A DNA stretch of 48,285 nucleotides from Bacteroidaceae bacterium. Its GTDB lineage: Bacteria; Bacteroidota; Bacteroidia; Bacteroidales; Bacteroidaceae. Made by a program: the position numbers and the translations under genes. The DNA is taken from contig JAEEGS010000019.1 in NCBI GenBank assembly GCA_016280445.1, forward strand, positions 1 to 48,285. The letters run 5' to 3'. The notes below the pieces were generated by a model that saw only the letters and a program-made list of their open reading frames with translations, had not been told where the DNA came from and did no database searches. Shown piece by piece: positions 12,238 through 27,074 of this stretch; the first letter of the stretch is position 1; every line of letters starts with the position of its first letter.

Positions 12238-12293
12238 CATCCGATTGTGGGGAACACCCATTATCTTCACCTTATTAACCTCCATTGATTCAC

Positions 12294-14123
12294 ATGCGGC
12301 TCAGTCGTATCGTCATACTAACCATCGTCTTTCTCCTACCTGCATTGCTCTTTGCACAAAACAAGAATTACAGCAAGAAGGAGGTGGATGCCATGCTGGA
12401 CATGCTGGACAGCGCTGTCGTTCATAAAAAGGAATATCAGCAGCAACGACAGCAGCGTATCGACAGCATCGAGCACGTAGTTAACACGTGCCCACCTGAC
12501 CTCTATGTGGATAACTGCAAGGAACTCTACAGCGCCTTGAGCGACTATGATGGAAGGCGTTCGCTCAAAGCACTCGAACGCATCGAGAAGACCAATGCTT
12601 ACCAAGAAGACAAAGTTCTCCAGACTTGGGTGCTGCTGAACCAATCAAGGGTGTACGCCATTATGGGACTCTACCACAATGCTAACGGCATCACCAACAG
12701 AATCGACCCAAAGGAACTCACGCCCGAAGAACAGCAGCACTATTACATCATTTGTTTGCGAAACATTGAGAACATCTCCGATTACCTGTCCGACATCAGT
12801 GTGGTACAGGACGAAGAAAGAAACCGCATCGCCTACTACGACAAAATTATAGAACTGGGCCTCGACGAGGTCATGGCCCATTTGATGTTGGCCAGCAAGG
12901 AGATTGAGTTGCACCGTCCCGAAGGTGCATTACTGGCTCTTGCGCGCATCAACACCCCCCAGAAAGGAAGGCGCCTCATCTACCAGTTGCTGACCCTCGC
13001 ATCTATTTACGAACAAAAAGGCAACCGTCAGAACCAAATCTACTATCTCGCCCAAGCGGCCATTGAGAATGTCCAGAGCGGCACCACCGAATACATTGCG
13101 CTGGCGCGTCTGGTACATGTGCTCTATGCTTATGAAGATGGCGACTATGTCGACCGAGCCTACGTCTACCTCATGTGTATGATGGAAGACGCTAATGCCT
13201 ACCCTTCACGCAGCCTCTCACTCGACGTTTCACGCTATTTCCCCATCATCAACCGTGCTTACAACCACCACCACGCAGACGAGGAAAAATCTGAAAAGAC
13301 AAAACGTCAGTCACTGATCATCACATTCGCCCTGCTGGCACTCACCCTTGCCGTTTCCTTCTATTTAGGATGGCACCAGAACAACGCTGCAAAGGAAAAG
13401 AAACGTGCTGACCAGTTGCAGAAGGCATTGGATCAAGCCACCATCGCTGACCGCGTGAAGACGGTCTTCATCCAGAATATGCGACACGAGATTCGTACAC
13501 CGCTCAATGCCATCATGGGCTTCGCACAACTCATGTCAAACGACCTTTCTCATGAAGAAAGAGCCCTCTACCAAAGCTATATACAAGAGAGCAATGACCA
13601 CCTCCTCGCCACCCTCGACGACATCATCGATGTGAGCAACATGGAAGTGGGCACCTTCAACTTCCATTTCGAGAATTTCGACATCGACACACTCTGCTAT
13701 GAACGCATGGAAACCGCACGGGAACAGCTGGTGGCAGGAGTGGAATTCAACTATCAGCCGCTACAGTCAGGGCTCCAACTCTATTCAGACCAGAAGCGCG
13801 TGGGCCAGGTACTTCACAACCTTCTCTCCAACGCCTGCAAGAACACTACCGAAGGTTCCATCACCCTGAGTGTGGCACACCAAATCGCCAACGACAGCAT
13901 TGAATTTGTCGTGACCGATACCGGGCCAGGCATCCCGCCCGAGAAGACGGATGTCATCTTTGAGCACTTCGAGAAACTGGACCACTACAGCCCAGGTCTT
14001 GGTCTCGGACTCTATGTGTGTCGCCTCATCGCACGTGCCTTGGGCGGCGACATCTACCTCGACACTAGCTACACAAAAGGGGCGCGCTTCGTCTTCACGG
14101 TGCCCAACAAGGATATCGAATGA
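12294..14123 (+). CDS. Membrane sensor histidine kinase with a helical-repeat periplasmic domain
   Basis: A 609-residue kinase. Residues 1-21 are a signal peptide; about 30-330 is an alpha-helical, TPR-like periplasmic region; 340-358 is a membrane helix; a short coiled coil follows. The dimerisation domain has an intact phospho-acceptor His398 (NMRHEIRTPLNAIMGF), and the ATPase domain has the N box (VLHNLLSNACKN), DTGPGIPPE and GLGLGLYVC. No receiver domain is attached and no response regulator gene lies nearby, so it is an orphan kinase. An in-frame TTG three codons upstream is less likely than this ATG. The gene overlaps the next by ATGA, so translation is probably coupled. Confidence 0.88.
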   Translation: MRLSRIVILTIVFLLPALLFAQNKNYSKKEVDAMLDMLDSAVVHKKEYQQQRQQRIDSIEHVVNTCPPDLYVDNCKELYSALSDYDGRRSLKALERIEKTNAYQEDKVLQTWVLLNQSRVYAIMGLYHNANGITNRIDPKELTPEEQQHYYIICLRNIENISDYLSDISVVQDEERNRIAYYDKIIELGLDEVMAHLMLASKEIELHRPEGALLALARINTPQKGRRLIYQLLTLASIYEQKGNRQNQIYYLAQAAIENVQSGTTEYIALARLVHVLYAYEDGDYVDRAYVYLMCMMEDANAYPSRSLSLDVSRYFPIINRAYNHHHADEEKSEKTKRQSLIITFALLALTLAVSFYLGWHQNNAAKEKKRADQLQKALDQATIADRVKTVFIQNMRHEIRTPLNAIMGFAQLMSNDLSHEERALYQSYIQESNDHLLATLDDIIDVSNMEVGTFNFHFENFDIDTLCYERMETAREQLVAGVEFNYQPLQSGLQLYSDQKRVGQVLHNLLSNACKNTTEGSITLSVAHQIANDSIEFVVTDTGPGIPPEKTDVIFEHFEKLDHYSPGLGLGLYVCRLIARALGGDIYLDTSYTKGARFVFTVPNKDIE

Positions 14124-21573: not shown

Positions 21574-21673
21574 AAGTGAAAAGTGAAAAGTGAAAAGTGA
21601 AAAATCTAAGTTGCTCAGCATCCGAATAGCAAGTAATATAGATTTTTCACTTTTCACTTTTCACTTTTCACTT
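21574..21673. repeat. 35-bp perfect inverted repeat built from AAGTGAA heptamers
   Basis: The left arm (21574-21608) is four copies of AAGTGAA plus AAATCTA. The right arm (21639-21673) is its exact reverse complement. The 30-base centre contains a smaller TTGCT...AGCAA pair. It lies between the divergent PurF-like gene and the ATPase gene and covers the -33 positions of both promoters. In either direction the RNA would form a very stable hairpin. Both arms are open in frame, which is why the two genes appear to have near-identical N-terminal extensions. Confidence 0.9.
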
Positions 21674-21681
21674 ATTTTCTT

Positions 21682-21690
21682 TATCTTTGC
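21682..21690 (+). promoter_or_regulatory. -7 box for the ATPase-TOPRIM pair
   Basis: TATCTTTGC, 23 bases upstream of the ATG at 21713. The matching -33 position falls in the right arm of the 35-bp inverted repeat. Confidence 0.55.
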
Positions 21691-21712
21691 GACATCAAAA
21701 CCTACAAGAACC

Positions 21713-22555
21713 ATGAGAAAAAGAGGTGACTACATTCAGAGCATCGAGATTCAGGCACTCTGGAAGGGTGGCAGGCACATCACGTGGGAACTGCAACCCG
21801 ATGTGAACATTCTGAGCGGCATCAACGGAGTGGGAAAAAGCACCATCATCAACCACTCGGCACGTATGCTAGATGCTATCGACAGGGGCGAGTTGGCTCC
21901 AGGCGATGCACCACAAGGCGTGAAAATCAAGTTGATGCCTGAAGATGCCACTTACATCAAGTTTGACGTCATCCGTTCCTTTGACAGGCCTTTGCTCCAT
22001 AGCGACCTGCTGGAGAAACTGTCCGACTCGCGCGTAAAGACTGAGCTCGACTGGCAAATCTACCGGTTGCAGAAGCGGTTTCTCGACTATCAGGTGAACA
22101 TCGGCAACCGCATCATCGAACTGCTCACCTCCGGCAATCCTGATGACCAAGGGAAAGCTGCTGAGGTGAGTGCGCCCAAGACGCAGTTTCAGGACATGAT
22201 TGACGAGCTCTTTGCCGACACCCACAAAAAGATTGACCGCAAGAGCAACGAAATACAGTTCATCCAAACCAACAGCAACGGTGGCACCGAAATCATCACT
22301 CCCTATCAACTTTCTAGCGGTGAGAAGCAGATGCTGGCCATCTTACTCACCGTGCTGGTTGAGAACCGTGAGCCTTATGCCCTATTGATGGACGAACCTG
22401 AGATTTCTCTCCACATTGACTGGCAACAACGGCTCATCGACCTCATCCGCCAGCTCAACCCTAACGTCCAAATCATTCTCTCGACCCACTCCCCCGCCCT
22501 CATCATGGACGGCTGGATGGGGAACGTGACCGAAGTGGGAGACATTAGTAATTAA
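21713..22555 (+). CDS. ABC-type AAA ATPase (OLD/RecF-like)
   Basis: A 280-residue soluble ATPase. Walker A is GINGVGKST (residues 36-44), the signature is LSSGEKQM (200-207), Walker B is ALLMDEPEISLH (223-234) and the H-loop is LSTHSPALI (256-264). The insert between Walker A and the signature is short (about 155 residues) and helical, so this is a compact ATPase without a long SMC-like arm or membrane parts. It is followed 4 bp later by the DUF4435 protein. In known conflict systems, such stand-alone ABC ATPases gate a neighbouring nuclease. The start at 21713 excludes an extension derived from the inverted repeat. Confidence 0.88.
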   Translation: MRKRGDYIQSIEIQALWKGGRHITWELQPDVNILSGINGVGKSTIINHSARMLDAIDRGELAPGDAPQGVKIKLMPEDATYIKFDVIRSFDRPLLHSDLLEKLSDSRVKTELDWQIYRLQKRFLDYQVNIGNRIIELLTSGNPDDQGKAAEVSAPKTQFQDMIDELFADTHKKIDRKSNEIQFIQTNSNGGTEIITPYQLSSGEKQMLAILLTVLVENREPYALLMDEPEISLHIDWQQRLIDLIRQLNPNVQIILSTHSPALIMDGWMGNVTEVGDISN

Positions 22556-22559
22556 GAAT

Positions 22560-23585
22560 ATGTCAAGACACCTCACCTCCAACCTCACCTCTGCCTATCT
22601 TGAGGCTGCTAACCGCTTGCGCCCCAAGACCAAAAAGCGGAAGATTTTCGCATACGTGGAATCGTATGACGACATCTTCTTCTGGCGCAATGTGCTGAGT
22701 GAGTTTGAAGATGAACAAACGGCTTTTGAGGTGATGTTGCCCTCACGCACCAATCTCAACCGTGGCAAAAAGACTGCACTGATGAACCGTCTGGGCGAAT
22801 CTTTGGGAAATTGTATGATTGCCTGCGTGGATGCCGACCTCGACTACCTGCTTCAACGCCACACCCCCTCTTCCATGCGTATGCTTGACAATCCTTATGT
22901 CATACACACCTACGCCTATTCCATCGAGAGTTACCAGTGTTATGCGCCCTCTCTGCACGATGTGTGTGTGATGGCCACGTTGAACGACCGTGACATCTTT
23001 AATTTCGAAGAGTATCTGCGTCAATACTCTGAAATTATCTACGAGCTTTTTGTGTGGATGGTATGGCTTCATCGCCGTGGACGCTTCAATGAGTTTCCTC
23101 TCAACAACTTCAACAACATCATCTCCGTAGAGCAACTGAACATCCATAAACCCATTGATGCGCTTGAGCGGGTACGCCGTCAAGTGAACCGCAAACTGGC
23201 ATGGCTTCAGCAGCATGTGAAGGATGCCAAGGGAAAACTCACGCCGCTCAAGGAGGAGCTTTCAGCTCTCGGGGTGCACAAAGACAACACTTACCTTTTC
23301 ATTCAAGGTCATCACCTCATGGAGAATGTCGTGGATGCCGCTCTCACCCCTGTGTGCACCCTCTTACGACGTGAACGTGAGAAAGACATCAAACTGCTGG
23401 CAAGAGGCAACAACCAACAGATGAACAACGAACTTTCCTGCTACTCCCACAGCCAGTTCCAACCTGTCCAGATGCTTCGTCGCAACACGGCATACAAAAA
23501 GTGCGAAGTCTATCAGATGCTTCGCACTCATATTCAGAACTTCCTCCAAATTCAGAAGAAGAGACCAACTGTCGGTAACTTTTAA
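22560..23585 (+). CDS. DUF4435 protein with TOPRIM-like motifs
   Basis: A 341-residue protein resembling DUF4435. The first strand and helix, IFAYVESYDDIFFWRNVL, carries Glu34. The second motif, CMIACVDADLDYLL, provides Asp91, Asp93 and Asp95. The Glu plus DxDxD arrangement is that of TOPRIM nucleases and primases such as OLD. A long helical C-terminal region follows with a strand TYLFIQGHHLMENVV. No signal or membrane segment is present. The gene starts 4 bp after the ATPase stop, so both are surely cotranscribed. I infer a two-component ATPase-nuclease; whether it is defensive or a repair pair cannot be seen here. Confidence 0.78.
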   Translation: MSRHLTSNLTSAYLEAANRLRPKTKKRKIFAYVESYDDIFFWRNVLSEFEDEQTAFEVMLPSRTNLNRGKKTALMNRLGESLGNCMIACVDADLDYLLQRHTPSSMRMLDNPYVIHTYAYSIESYQCYAPSLHDVCVMATLNDRDIFNFEEYLRQYSEIIYELFVWMVWLHRRGRFNEFPLNNFNNIISVEQLNIHKPIDALERVRRQVNRKLAWLQQHVKDAKGKLTPLKEELSALGVHKDNTYLFIQGHHLMENVVDAALTPVCTLLRREREKDIKLLARGNNQQMNNELSCYSHSQFQPVQMLRRNTAYKKCEVYQMLRTHIQNFLQIQKKRPTVGNF

Positions 23586-23595
23586 GAAGAAGTCA

Positions 23596-25503
23596 TCAAT
23601 TATCAGGAATCTCCATGATGAAACGGGCTCCCTCCTTGTAGGATGAGTCATGCTCCAGCGTACCATTCAACAAAGTTGCCGTCTGCCGCGCGAGACTAAG
23701 GCCAAGTCCGAGGCCCTCCGTGAAACTATCGGACTTATAGAATGGTTCGAAGAGGAGCTGCAGTCCTTCTTTCGTAATACCAGGTCCTTTGTCTTCTATG
23801 GTGAAACGTAGCATATCCCCAGCCTGTTCGATATGGAGGCCTATGTATTCACCTGAACTGTACTTCTTAGCATTGCGAATCAACTCTCGCAACACACGGA
23901 ACAAGTAAAGTGGGTTGGTATGAATGCACTTGGTGTCGGGCAAGGTGGTCGTGAACTGCGGCGTAAAAGCATTTTTCGACAAATTCTGGAAGTCTTGAAT
24001 CACCTTACGAGCCAATTCATTCACATTCACCTCTTTCGTCAGATCAAGTGCTGGTCGATCCTCCATCCAAGACGAATCAAAAATCATGTGCGCCATTCGC
24101 CGCATGGTCACCGTATGCTCCTTGATCACATCGGTTTGAGTTTTGACATCCTCGTCGGTTAATGTGTCCCGACTATCACGCAACACCTGCATGAACCCAC
24201 CAATGATATTCAGTGGTGTACGCAATTGAAGCGACACATTTTGAAGGAAATTCGTCTTGCGAAGCACTGCCGCCTGTGCCTGTTTGTTCACCTCTTCAAG
24301 TTGTTGGTTACGTTCCTCCGTGGCGGCATTCATCTGCCGTATATCATTGATATTTCTATCAATAGCCCTTTGTATATAAAAGAAATTATTTTGCAGATGC
24401 CCCACCACATCAATACGTTTGCTAGGAGGCAAATGCTCGTCAATATGTCCGTTTGCAATATATTGTGCCTGCTTTGCCAACAAGTTGAGCGGCTTGATGA
24501 AATGGGCAACACCCTTCCAGCAGACAAGCAGCAAGAAGAGAAGACCGCCAATCATCAATGGAAAAACAATGTGGCCCAAACGGTTATATTGTATGAAGAT
24601 GTCATCCTCTGGCACAACCAGTCCTACGCTCCAGCTCGAACCAGGAACAGGGCGATAGAAAACGAGGACGTTCTGCTTGTCGAGTTTGATTGCCACATGA
24701 CCCGTTTTCCCATCAATCATATCGTGTCCCAACTGAATGAGGTCATCACGTTGTTCCCCTTCAAATACCGAGAAGATGCTCTGCTTCACCAGTTTCATCT
24801 TATCGGGATGCACAAAGTAGTTGCCCTGTGAACCAAGCAGCACGCCATAGGAATGTTCATAAGGTTTCTGGCCATCAATGATATCGGAAAGTTGCGGAGC
24901 AGCGATGTCGGTAGCAATAACACCAATAAAATCGCCGTTAGCATTGCGTAGAGGCCTACAGTATGAAGCAATCATTGAATATGCTGACAGAGTGCCTTCG
25001 TTGAAGTCGTTGTATGGATCCACCCACACCGCTTCGTCCCTTTCTTTCGCTGTTTTGTACCATACTTTCTCATAATAATCATAATCACCTTCTATGACGG
25101 TCTCTATCCTGTCCGTTTCTCTCAGCGAGTAGGCAGAGAAGCGCCTTCCACCATGTGTGAAGACATCCGGTTCCATCGTGATGGAACAGCCGTTGATAAG
25201 CGGATTCAGTGCCACCACACGATGCGTGTAGTTCAGCAACGAATCGGCCTGCAGATTTTCCTCTGCCAGCCATGCCGTATTGTTCGTGGCAGTTTCAGCC
25301 TCGTCCAGACACTTTTTCACCCTCTGAACCGTATTGTCGAGCGCACGTTCAGCACGCTCTATCGCCTCCGCTTTCACCAACAAACGCGAACGGAAGAAGA
25401 GGAAGCCCAGACTGACGACAAAGACTGCCACCACAAAGAGCAGAATTCCCACGCTGATTTTCATCGACAGCGAATTCTTGATAGATGGTATTTTAACCTT
25501 CAT
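23596..25503 (-). CDS. Cache-HAMP sensor kinase with Leu in place of the catalytic His
   Basis: A 635-residue protein: membrane helix (about 17-37), periplasmic dCache-like domain (about 40-300), second membrane helix (about 312-332), HAMP (about 335-390), coiled coil, then DHp and ATPase domains. The H box reads NFLQNVSLQLRTPLNIIGGF: Leu425 stands where the phospho-accepting His should be, and Gln426 replaces the usual Glu. The codon CTT (24229-24231) is one base from CAT. The ATPase domain looks intact (RELIRNAKKY, EDKGPGI, GLGLGLSLA). It may act as an allosteric or heterodimeric partner rather than a normal autokinase. It overlaps the upstream gene by ATGA. Confidence 0.85.
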   Translation of the reverse strand: MKVKIPSIKNSLSMKISVGILLFVVAVFVVSLGFLFFRSRLLVKAEAIERAERALDNTVQRVKKCLDEAETATNNTAWLAEENLQADSLLNYTHRVVALNPLINGCSITMEPDVFTHGGRRFSAYSLRETDRIETVIEGDYDYYEKVWYKTAKERDEAVWVDPYNDFNEGTLSAYSMIASYCRPLRNANGDFIGVIATDIAAPQLSDIIDGQKPYEHSYGVLLGSQGNYFVHPDKMKLVKQSIFSVFEGEQRDDLIQLGHDMIDGKTGHVAIKLDKQNVLVFYRPVPGSSWSVGLVVPEDDIFIQYNRLGHIVFPLMIGGLLFLLLVCWKGVAHFIKPLNLLAKQAQYIANGHIDEHLPPSKRIDVVGHLQNNFFYIQRAIDRNINDIRQMNAATEERNQQLEEVNKQAQAAVLRKTNFLQNVSLQLRTPLNIIGGFMQVLRDSRDTLTDEDVKTQTDVIKEHTVTMRRMAHMIFDSSWMEDRPALDLTKEVNVNELARKVIQDFQNLSKNAFTPQFTTTLPDTKCIHTNPLYLFRVLRELIRNAKKYSSGEYIGLHIEQAGDMLRFTIEDKGPGITKEGLQLLFEPFYKSDSFTEGLGLGLSLARQTATLLNGTLEHDSSYKEGARFIMEIPDN

Positions 25504-26963
25504 GACTTCTTCTCTGGAGATTTAAGCAACTGGTCAAGCAGCGTTGTGATAATCTTTATCTGATCCATCACCTGGTCTGTCAGCGGTTGGATGGTCTTTT
25601 TATCCATTCTTGGATTCTTCTGGATCATGGCAACCACTCCGTCAATAATGACGACAGGTGGAATCATCTTGTCAGCAATGCGATGCACAAGGCCAGTTTT
25701 CATTCGGTCAACCTCTTGTATTTGTACATTGGCCTCACGCAGTTCCTCATTATGTTTCCTCAACTCGTCCGATGCCTTGTGCACTTCCTCCCTGTTCTGT
25801 GCCAGCGACCGCCGCATCACACGGAAACTTTCTTGCAGATGGCCTATCTCATCCTTCCTGTCCGTGGGAGGTATAGGCTCCGAAAAGTCGCCTCTTGCAA
25901 TGCGCTGTGCCAATTTCGCCAACATGTTCAGCGGTTGCAATTGATGTGTTACAAACAGCAAGCAGAAAGCAAGTATCAGTAATAGTCCCACCATCGTGAT
26001 GACTATCATGTAAGCCTTCAGACGGTCATTCCCGGCAAGGATGTCACTCTCCGGGCACACGATACAGGCACTCCAGTGCCCTTTGTTCATTCCTTCAAAC
26101 AGCACATAACAATCCTCCCCGTTCAGTGTCACGGAACTACATCCCGTCTTGCCTGCCAACATCGCATCCACCAGATCCTTCACACGTTTGTCGGACGATT
26201 CCTTCACGACATCGTGCACCAGTTTATGATAAAGTCTCGTACTGTCGGGGTGAACCAGATAAGTGCCCTGCACTCCCAGCATGGCACAATAAGAATTGGG
26301 GAATGGCTTCGTGCTGAGTACTCGATTCGACATCTCTGCCACCGAGATGTCGGCAGCAAACACACCCACAGGCCGTCCTGTTTTGTCATGGATAGGCGTG
26401 GAACAAGTCACCACCGACGAGAGCAGCGTATCATTCGGTGCATGAGGTCTCACCCAGCACATCGTGTTTTCCCTGATGGGAACAAAATACCAAGTCACAG
26501 CAACGTACGGCACTGTCCCATACACGTTCGGTTCCAGCACTGTCGGGTCTTTCGTCATGAGGATTTCACCTTCGTCACGATACGCGTACGTCATGAAAAA
26601 TTCATCTTCCCCCTTATAATAATTGGGTTCAAATGCAATTTCACACCCTATCACGTTCGGGTTATCTTTCAGAAACTGCAAACAATAATTCGCCATCTTG
26701 TCAGGTTCGTCAACATGGTGCTCCACATTCCAGCACATGTTGATTGAGGCGACCTCCACCTCGTGCATCACATTGTCAATATACAGCACCGTGCCATCCA
26801 GCATCTGCCTCGCCTTCTCCAGCGATTCTTTCTCCACAGCCTGATGAGAGTATCGGAACATCACCGACAATGCAGCCACGAATAGCAGCGCCACCCCTAG
26901 CAACACCCACGCTCCCATTCTCACCGGGAGGCGTTTGCGGACATATCTATGGACACGATTCAA
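25500..26963 (-). CDS. Cache-HAMP sensor with a DHp-like end and no ATPase domain
   Basis: A sister of the next gene: membrane helix, dCache-like domain with similar signature strands (CEIAFEPNYYKG, SYCAMLGVQGTYLVHPD), second membrane helix, HAMP and coiled coil. It then ends in a DHp-like helix pair (DRMKTGLVHRIADKMIPPVV) and stops, with no ATPase domain. Aligned by eye with its neighbour, Asp (codon 25671-25673) occupies the phospho-acceptor position. The start is uncertain: the open frame reaches 27035, but its TTG there lies in the -7 box. A TTG at 26963 gives a basic N-terminus before the membrane helix; the first ATG is at 26918. It ends by ATGA overlap with the following kinase-like gene. 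Confidence 0.78.
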   Translation of the reverse strand: MNRVHRYVRKRLPVRMGAWVLLGVALLFVAALSVMFRYSHQAVEKESLEKARQMLDGTVLYIDNVMHEVEVASINMCWNVEHHVDEPDKMANYCLQFLKDNPNVIGCEIAFEPNYYKGEDEFFMTYAYRDEGEILMTKDPTVLEPNVYGTVPYVAVTWYFVPIRENTMCWVRPHAPNDTLLSSVVTCSTPIHDKTGRPVGVFAADISVAEMSNRVLSTKPFPNSYCAMLGVQGTYLVHPDSTRLYHKLVHDVVKESSDKRVKDLVDAMLAGKTGCSSVTLNGEDCYVLFEGMNKGHWSACIVCPESDILAGNDRLKAYMIVITMVGLLLILAFCLLFVTHQLQPLNMLAKLAQRIARGDFSEPIPPTDRKDEIGHLQESFRVMRRSLAQNREEVHKASDELRKHNEELREANVQIQEVDRMKTGLVHRIADKMIPPVVIIDGVVAMIQKNPRMDKKTIQPLTDQVMDQIKIITTLLDQLLKSPEKKS

Positions 26964-27031: not shown

Positions 27032-27063
27032 GCAAAGATACCTATTTTTTTCTTTCCTCCAAA
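27032..27063 (-). promoter_or_regulatory. Bacteroidetes-type promoter for the two sensor genes
   Basis: On the minus strand, TTTG (27060-27063) and TATCTTTGC (27032-27040) with a 19-bp spacer, matching consensus at both boxes. Transcription would begin near 27025. It lies right after the GH51 terminator. Confidence 0.72.
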
Positions 27064-27074
27064 CATATTTCAAT

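Follow-up and report, generated by a model that had tools for sequence, protein, structure and literature searches.

DivL and RocA are receptors derived from histidine kinases (HKs) in which the phospho-acceptor is absent or dispensable and which are reported to work through other proteins (PMC9491836, PMC7028121). In split kinases such as CheA3-CheA4, ATP binding and phosphotransfer are described as residing on two proteins, and the same source counts 1556 HisKA proteins without HATPase among 42417 in SMART (3.66%; PMC3591291). The truncated pseudokinase ChrS of Corynebacterium glutamicum is an HK variant without a CA (ATPase) domain that is said still to matter, ChrS and HrrS being described as heterodimerizing (PMC9491836), and in variants of CrdS (H371A, E372Q; PMC3510030) and EnvZ (PMC8971529) the acceptor or the acidic residue following it (+1) is changed while Asn or Thr at +4 is kept. 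Here, we describe a pair of overlapping genes, the upstream U and the downstream D, on the minus strand of a 48,285-nt stretch of DNA from a Bacteroidaceae bacterium that is probably related to Prevotella (assembly GCA_016280445.1, contig JAEEGS010000019.1, positions 1 to 48,285; the whole stretch is called the window below), which stands between the pseudo-histidine-kinases and the split kinases.

Whereas DivL and RocA act on a separate, intact HK, the fixed partner of D is itself without acceptor and CA domain. The CA-less half of a split kinase bears the acceptor; U carries no acceptor His in any of 106 distinct pairs, which rules out a split kinase, and D keeps a DHp domain of its own. The CrdS and EnvZ variants share with D the altered acceptor or +1 position next to a retained +4 residue, yet they are laboratory mutants, whereas U-D is a natural conserved pair, known from sequence. 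The truncated ChrS, likewise, is a product of laboratory evolution and, in the account given of it, showed no two-hybrid interaction (PMC9491836). The H-box His of an orthodox HisKA kinase is replaced by Leu in D and Asp in U, while the Thr or Asn at +4 typical of HisKA response regulator (RR) phosphatases is found in 106/106 D proteins. As in pseudo-histidine-kinases, the acceptor is gone while the protein is kept under selection, as estimated by dN/dS in relatives of the window's pair. No description of this pair family was found in the open-access literature searched.

Two sensor subunits, one ATPase domain and no acceptor histidine

D (23596..25503, 635 aa) has the domain order dCache-HAMP-DHp-HATPase_c. 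Its double Cache sensor (residues 91-294, 24622..25233), predicted to be periplasmic, is recognized by Pfam MCP-like_PDC_1 and dCache_1 and by Foldseek matches to 3lib and 9heh. It is followed by a HAMP-like stretch (residues 335-365, 24409..24501) whose match of 14.8 bits stays below the Pfam cut-off, a DHp domain (HisKA, 24058..24258) and a CA domain (HATPase_c, 23602..23913) with N, G1, F and G2 motifs. HisKA (35.4 bits, cut-off 26.9), HATPase_c (78.3) and dCache_1 (64.9) all pass. Where the phospho-acceptor is expected, D has Leu425 (CTT, 24229..24231), and at +4 it has Thr429 (24217..24219), the residue used by HisKA phosphatases.

U (25500..26963) comprises 487 aa when read from a TTG at 26963; the open frame extends to 27035, and the TTG start, also chosen in the initial annotation, was judged by alignment to relatives. 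It carries a Cache sensor region (26070..26678; MCP-like_PDC_1 above and dCache_1 below the cut-off), a HAMP domain (25800..25946, 52.1 bits in Pfam) and, at the very end of the protein, a DHp-like helical hairpin (25524..25709). The acceptor position is taken by Asp (GAC, 25671..25673), with a His one helical turn ahead of it at -4 (25683..25685), as placed by the pair alignment and highlighted by site rates. An ATGA (25500..25503) joins the U stop to the D start. The initial annotation had both codons and the ATGA joint exactly right, and its description of U as ending after a hairpin without an ATPase domain, and of the ATPase domain of D as good, is borne out by Pfam.

Only D has HisKA and HATPase_c with the N, G1 and G2 motifs; a Pfam scan of U gave neither at E<=1. 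The hairpin of U is nonetheless, by profile comparison, a genuine DHp homologue, because a profile built from 55 relatives of U finds the HK853 DHp (2c2a) with an E value of 8e-7 and because the U protein of a second U-D pair in the same genome (contig C4) passes the HisKA cut-off. Leu425 of D and the Asp of U fall into one column in three joint alignments. The AF2 models of both proteins have a mean pLDDT of 82, with a pTM of 0.51 for D and 0.62 for U; the latter model has helices at 372-449 and 455-480, its DHp block being of low confidence (pLDDT 60-73).

The sensor of D was also compared by eye, without formal alignment to PctA, with the motif of CahR-type dCache domains for autoinducer-2 (AI-2), given as R, W, Y, D and D at PctA positions 126, 128, 144, 146 and 173 (PMC9540692). 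D has K146, W148, W160, D162 and D199, that is, 3/5.

U and D form a conserved pair family

Searching more widely, we found that U and D make up a conserved pair family with near-obligatory pairing. A near-full-length D is present in 22 of 37 genomes of the genus, the window's included. Among the genus-genome loci fetched beyond the window, U lies upstream of D in 44/45 (the exception is L084), and in all 80 named loci from the best 80 of 570 relatives in a profile scan it lies directly upstream (76 by a scripted rule, 3 with a longer overlap and 1 cut by the contig end). These named relatives are mostly metagenome-assembled genomes (MAGs) assigned to Prevotella, Prevotellaceae, Bacteroidaceae or Bacteroidales, and include Prevotella sp. 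ne3005. Protein searches contributed the best 120 of 291 U matches and the best 120 of 316 D matches. For counting, pairs were considered distinct by D residues 60-500, so that 19 loci with identical residues were dropped and 106 remained; the D set of 165 rows used alongside them (the best 120 of 316 database matches plus loci) was counted after removal of fragments or a fusion (P0050, P0051, P0095) and of copies of the window (P0001, P0121).

When 46 selected rows were placed in a tree, the U proteins grouped as a single clade (SH-aLRT 96), and a single clade for D was acceptable by the AU test (p-AU 0.65). The simplest history to fit both results is a single ancient duplication followed by co-descent of the pair.

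In 14/17 loci of another group of pairs (G3), a homologue of NMT1/THI5-type binding proteins stands upstream of U; the assignment was checked with Pfam in one locus (L070, 6232-7182). This hints at a binding-protein-fed receptor there, to which ligand might be delivered. No such upstream gene was seen in the window's group. The same type of Cache-HAMP sensor also occurs fused to a SpoIIE phosphatase in three loci of the window's genome (L004, L006, L010), two of which end in HATPase_c_2, and some U homologues are named RsbU by one source despite lacking a SpoIIE-type domain.

The acceptor was lost early in U and later, in one clade, in D

Across the 106 distinct pairs, the acceptor position of U is Asp in 74, Asn in 25, another residue in 7 and never His. 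That of D is His in 89; the other 17 have Leu (12), Ile (2), Met (2) or Arg (1) and are all paired with an Asp-bearing U. Around this site, Thr at +4 is as invariant in D as Pro at +5 (106/106 each), Gln at +1 occurs in 105/106 (16/17 of the His-less proteins), and in the larger set, where 74 of 165 rows are His-less, Thr at +4 is present in 165/165.

A 100-row tree, for which near-copies had been taken out (at 93% for D; 90% was the limit used for U), places the His-less proteins within one 44-row clade (SH-aLRT 98), with a minimum of three changes; one His-less pair outside this tree, L099, has a D 77% identical to that of L057, a clade member. Farther members of the same group (L047, L054, L055, P0156, P0175) carry His, so the change in D is a clade-level rather than a universal loss. 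Judged from these residue patterns, the loss of His in U is old and family-wide, and that in D is later and clade-bound.

The initial annotation had taken the absence of His from both partners to argue against random decay. That much stands, as the change is kept in relatives; a joint loss in a single event does not, because U is His-less in all 106 pairs and D lost its His later, in one clade. As to its question whether both residues are conserved in orthologs, the Asp of U is present in 17/17 His-less pairs, and in D it is the absence of His that holds at the level of the clade. A His at residue 425 in close relatives and a sequencing error, the two outcomes that it had named as fatal, did not materialize: the nearest database relatives have Leu (P0122, P0123, P0124, P0126) or Met (P0125), and sequencing error is excluded because these, too, lack the His.

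That the locus is decaying, or owes its changes to faulty assembly or sequencing, would fit with many of the named relatives being MAG assemblies, and a lone substitution at species level could be noise. We consider this explanation scarcely credible. Besides the window, 16 distinct pairs have a non-His D, as do the five database relatives closest to it, and dN/dS is far below 1 in three of the four species pairs described next; together, the non-His relatives and the low dN/dS rule out random decay or error.

Purifying selection on His-less relatives of the pair

For four pairs of His-less species, with the window not among them, dN/dS was 0.10, 0.35 (at a dS of only 0.05), 0.05 and 0.18 for D and 0.10, 0.37, 0.06 and 0.17 for U; where dS was substantial (three of the four), the CA domain gave 0.07-0.23. 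By these estimates, the U-D pair is under purifying selection in relatives of the window.

Site rates indicate what is being kept. The acceptor column of D has relaxed from rate percentile 2 in His-bearing proteins to 39 in His-less ones. In the latter, slow sites include Thr at +4 (percentile 3), Asn at +7 (3), N544 (3), K590 (4) and the G2 glycines (14), helix 1 of the DHp is the slowest segment (0.53 versus 1.0-1.3), and constraint extends over the regulator-facing positions +7, +8, +11 and +12. N544, D571, G573, G575, G597, G599 and G601 are all intact in 17/17 His-less pairs. U has the opposite pattern at +4, which is fast (percentile 90), while +2 and +9, which probably lie in the dimer core, are slow (2 and 11).

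The intact CA residues could also be taken to mean that the ATPase domain of D phosphorylates another protein or drives it allosterically, as the initial annotation had suggested. Two observations speak against this: no substrate was found, and D has lost its own acceptor and carries Gln at +1, a residue reported to abolish kinase activity in CrdS (PMC3510030). Nor is retention of the CA domain diagnostic, since HisKA phosphatases, too, depend on a CA domain with bound nucleotide. We therefore regard trans-phosphorylation or allosteric driving by D as very unlikely, and this part of the initial proposal is unsupported.

A second possibility is that the acceptor has moved by one helical turn to the -4 His, which in the window is present in U and in most of the clade is shared by U and D. 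Indeed, D has His at -4 in 59/74 non-His rows versus 0/91 His rows (13/17 non-His D proteins among the distinct pairs), and U has it in 17/17 pairs with a His-less D, where in the window's group (G1) it evolves at rate percentile 3. Against this, the changes amount to few independent events on the tree (three at the acceptor, four at -4), the -4 His occurs in U in 32 of the 89 pairs whose D keeps its His, and D of the window has Gln at -4. In addition, counted from the -4 His, U of the window has Arg at +1 and Asp at +4, and at the corresponding sites of CrdS both E372 substitutions and N375D are reported to abolish kinase activity (PMC3510030). A moved acceptor thus appears improbable. It is only in G1, where D later lost its His, that the -4 His and the Asp of U are both slow-evolving.

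A possible receptor phosphatase

Which activity might such a pair retain? In CrdS, the H371A variant is reported to keep phosphatase activity (regulator half-life 2.6 min, compared to 0.7 with the wild type and 53.5 without enzyme), changes of the +1 acid, E372Q included, to leave the protein kinase-dead and phosphatase-competent, and N/T375 at +4 to be required for the phosphatase (PMC3510030, Willett and Kirby). D lacks the acceptor and combines Gln at +1 and Thr at +4 with intact ATP-site motifs, as in the CrdS variants, and RR phosphatase is for this reason its likeliest role. Our tentative reading, which we hold to be possible rather than probable, is that U and D may form a heterodimer acting as a signal-controlled RR phosphatase, not as a kinase, on a target encoded elsewhere.

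That U and D form a dimer is plausible from their near-obligatory pairing, gene overlap and co-descent and from the pattern in U, in which probable core positions are kept and regulator-facing ones lost; it is also the part of the earlier proposal, a heteromeric receptor, that survives as the best inference. The two proteins would dimerize via their DHp domains; U would contribute another sensor and helix pair, neither docking the regulator nor doing chemistry. Ligand in one or both Cache domains could toggle D between two states, one that docks the regulator with the phosphatase on and one that is off, and nucleotide in its CA domain would serve as cofactor. Because elsewhere in the family this U is paired with a D that has its His, the window's clade would represent a receptor kinase whose kinase half has been discarded and whose off-switch remains. 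If the dimer is right, the His-bearing pairs would have to autophosphorylate in cis, as the sole CA domain and the sole acceptor are on one chain.

Several points weigh against this receptor phosphatase. No REC match occurs on the window's contig, so there is no adjacent cognate RR. The acceptor His of HK853 is reported to hold the catalytic water and to aid the phosphatase (PMC5727384), and since it does so and H371A slowed CrdS, a Leu would be expected to weaken the activity. Thr at +4 and Gln at +1 are family-wide (106/106 and 105/106) and therefore retained rather than new adaptations. The CA domain also appears somewhat relaxed, with G1 box residues D571, G573 and G575 at percentiles 18-27 in His-less versus 3-8 in His-bearing D, and with one of seven CA residues lost in 4/74 His-less versus 0/91 His-bearing rows. 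L047 and P0175 are nested within the His-less clade yet carry His, which implies regain or several losses, and the forks in this part of the tree are weak (83-87). The structural model does not help: matches of D to HK853 include many RR-bound chains (TMt 0.81-0.85), free 2c2a (0.66) and the RR-bound 4jas and 4jav (0.63-0.76), which leaves the predicted conformational state unsettled, and we give it no weight. Finally, G010, G011 and G014 show no His-bearing sister pair. A close alternative to dephosphorylation is sequestration of the regulator, as supposed phosphatase variants are reported to be able to act in this way (PMC8971529).

Sister pairs are central to another explanation, by which U-D is a pseudokinase co-receptor that tunes another, His-bearing HK by hetero-oligomerization, without phosphatase chemistry. 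Such proteins are known, with RocA-CovS (PMC7028121), DivL-CckA (PMC9491836) and RetS-GacS as examples; the model of D matches DivL (4q20_A, TMt 0.80), and both DivL and RetS are among the profile matches. Moreover, 13 of the 16 His-less genomes hold a His-bearing sister pair, which in the window's genome is the pair on contig C4. The three without one named above count against a co-receptor as well, and a co-receptor would have no need for the constraint on Thr at +4 and on +7, +8, +11 and +12 in His-less D. On balance, we consider it unlikely, if worth keeping in mind. An elaborated form of the phosphatase reading, in which kinase chemistry is gone from both subunits of a natural receptor-phosphatase heterodimer that opposes its His-bearing sister pairs on a shared orphan RR, strikes us as doubtful.

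Candidate target regulator

The window's genome has seven REC matches. Two of these RECs were judged to be orphans by their neighbours and frames: a REC-PglZ protein, which we take to be PorX-like, and a stand-alone REC of 142 aa adjoining TackOD1. TackOD1 is present in 22/22 genomes of the genus with D (among them G008, which lacks U) versus 8/15 without D (Fisher p 0.0006, a value that ignores kinship). In a 249-genome family sample, the corresponding in-genus counts are 17/17 and 5/7. In the same sample, no TackOD1 match was present in the D-bearing genomes G124, G133, G235 and G261 from outside the genus (a fifth, G192, was left out since its hit spans residues 9-415 of a 788-aa frame), and because of these four, the TackOD1 link is at best clade-specific.

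Within the genus the stand-alone REC is conserved, with 85-92% identity in seven loci that have it immediately next to TackOD1, 81% in L184, in which the two are separated by a 438-aa frame, and 66% in L178. A close REC (82-88% identity) is also found in G030 and G031, which have neither D nor TackOD1, and L181, a locus from a different family, contains TackOD1 but gave no REC match. L178 (954-6655), from a D-less genome, has the order TackOD1, stand-alone REC, complete HK and a CA-less HK keeping its His. The stand-alone REC by TackOD1 is thus a lead to the target of U-D, with mixed support. The two HKs of L178 have TPR-like matches below the cut-off, and the design of a complete plus a CA-less HK recurs there with another sensor.

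Neighbouring genes and divergence at the site

Nine of the 18 further G1 loci retrieved (L040-L046, L048, L050) share the neighbours of the window's pair at high identity (AAA 78-92%, DUF4435 84-87%, GH51 85-89%), while their D and U are only 49-55% and 50-56% identical to those of the window. By these identities, either the U-D pair diversifies much more rapidly than the genes around it or exchange has taken place at this site. The AAA and DUF4435 genes (21590-23585, plus strand) match AriA (E 2e-55) and AriB (E 2e-59) in PADLOC and are presumably the PARIS anti-phage system.

Upstream of U, TATCTTTG at 27033..27040 (minus strand) is a presumptive Bacteroidota-type -7 element; a second TAnnTTTG lies at 27060-27067. 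Elsewhere in the window, a gene at 12285-14123 (plus strand) encodes a His-bearing HK (DUF6377-HisKA-HATPase_c), with no REC match on the contig; it overlaps a 146-aa gene without a Pfam match, which is followed by a cobalamin adenosyltransferase.

Implications for kinase and phosphatase activities

Studies of the phosphatase activity of HKs usually treat it as one of the two functions of a bifunctional enzyme. If the receptor phosphatase proposed here is true, the conserved His-less clade would be a natural separation of kinase and phosphatase activities, and the presence of His-bearing and His-less sisters in one family allows their direct comparison. The wider family, with its 106 distinct pairs, gives the impression of an extensive group of heteromeric receptors among Prevotella-type bacteria.

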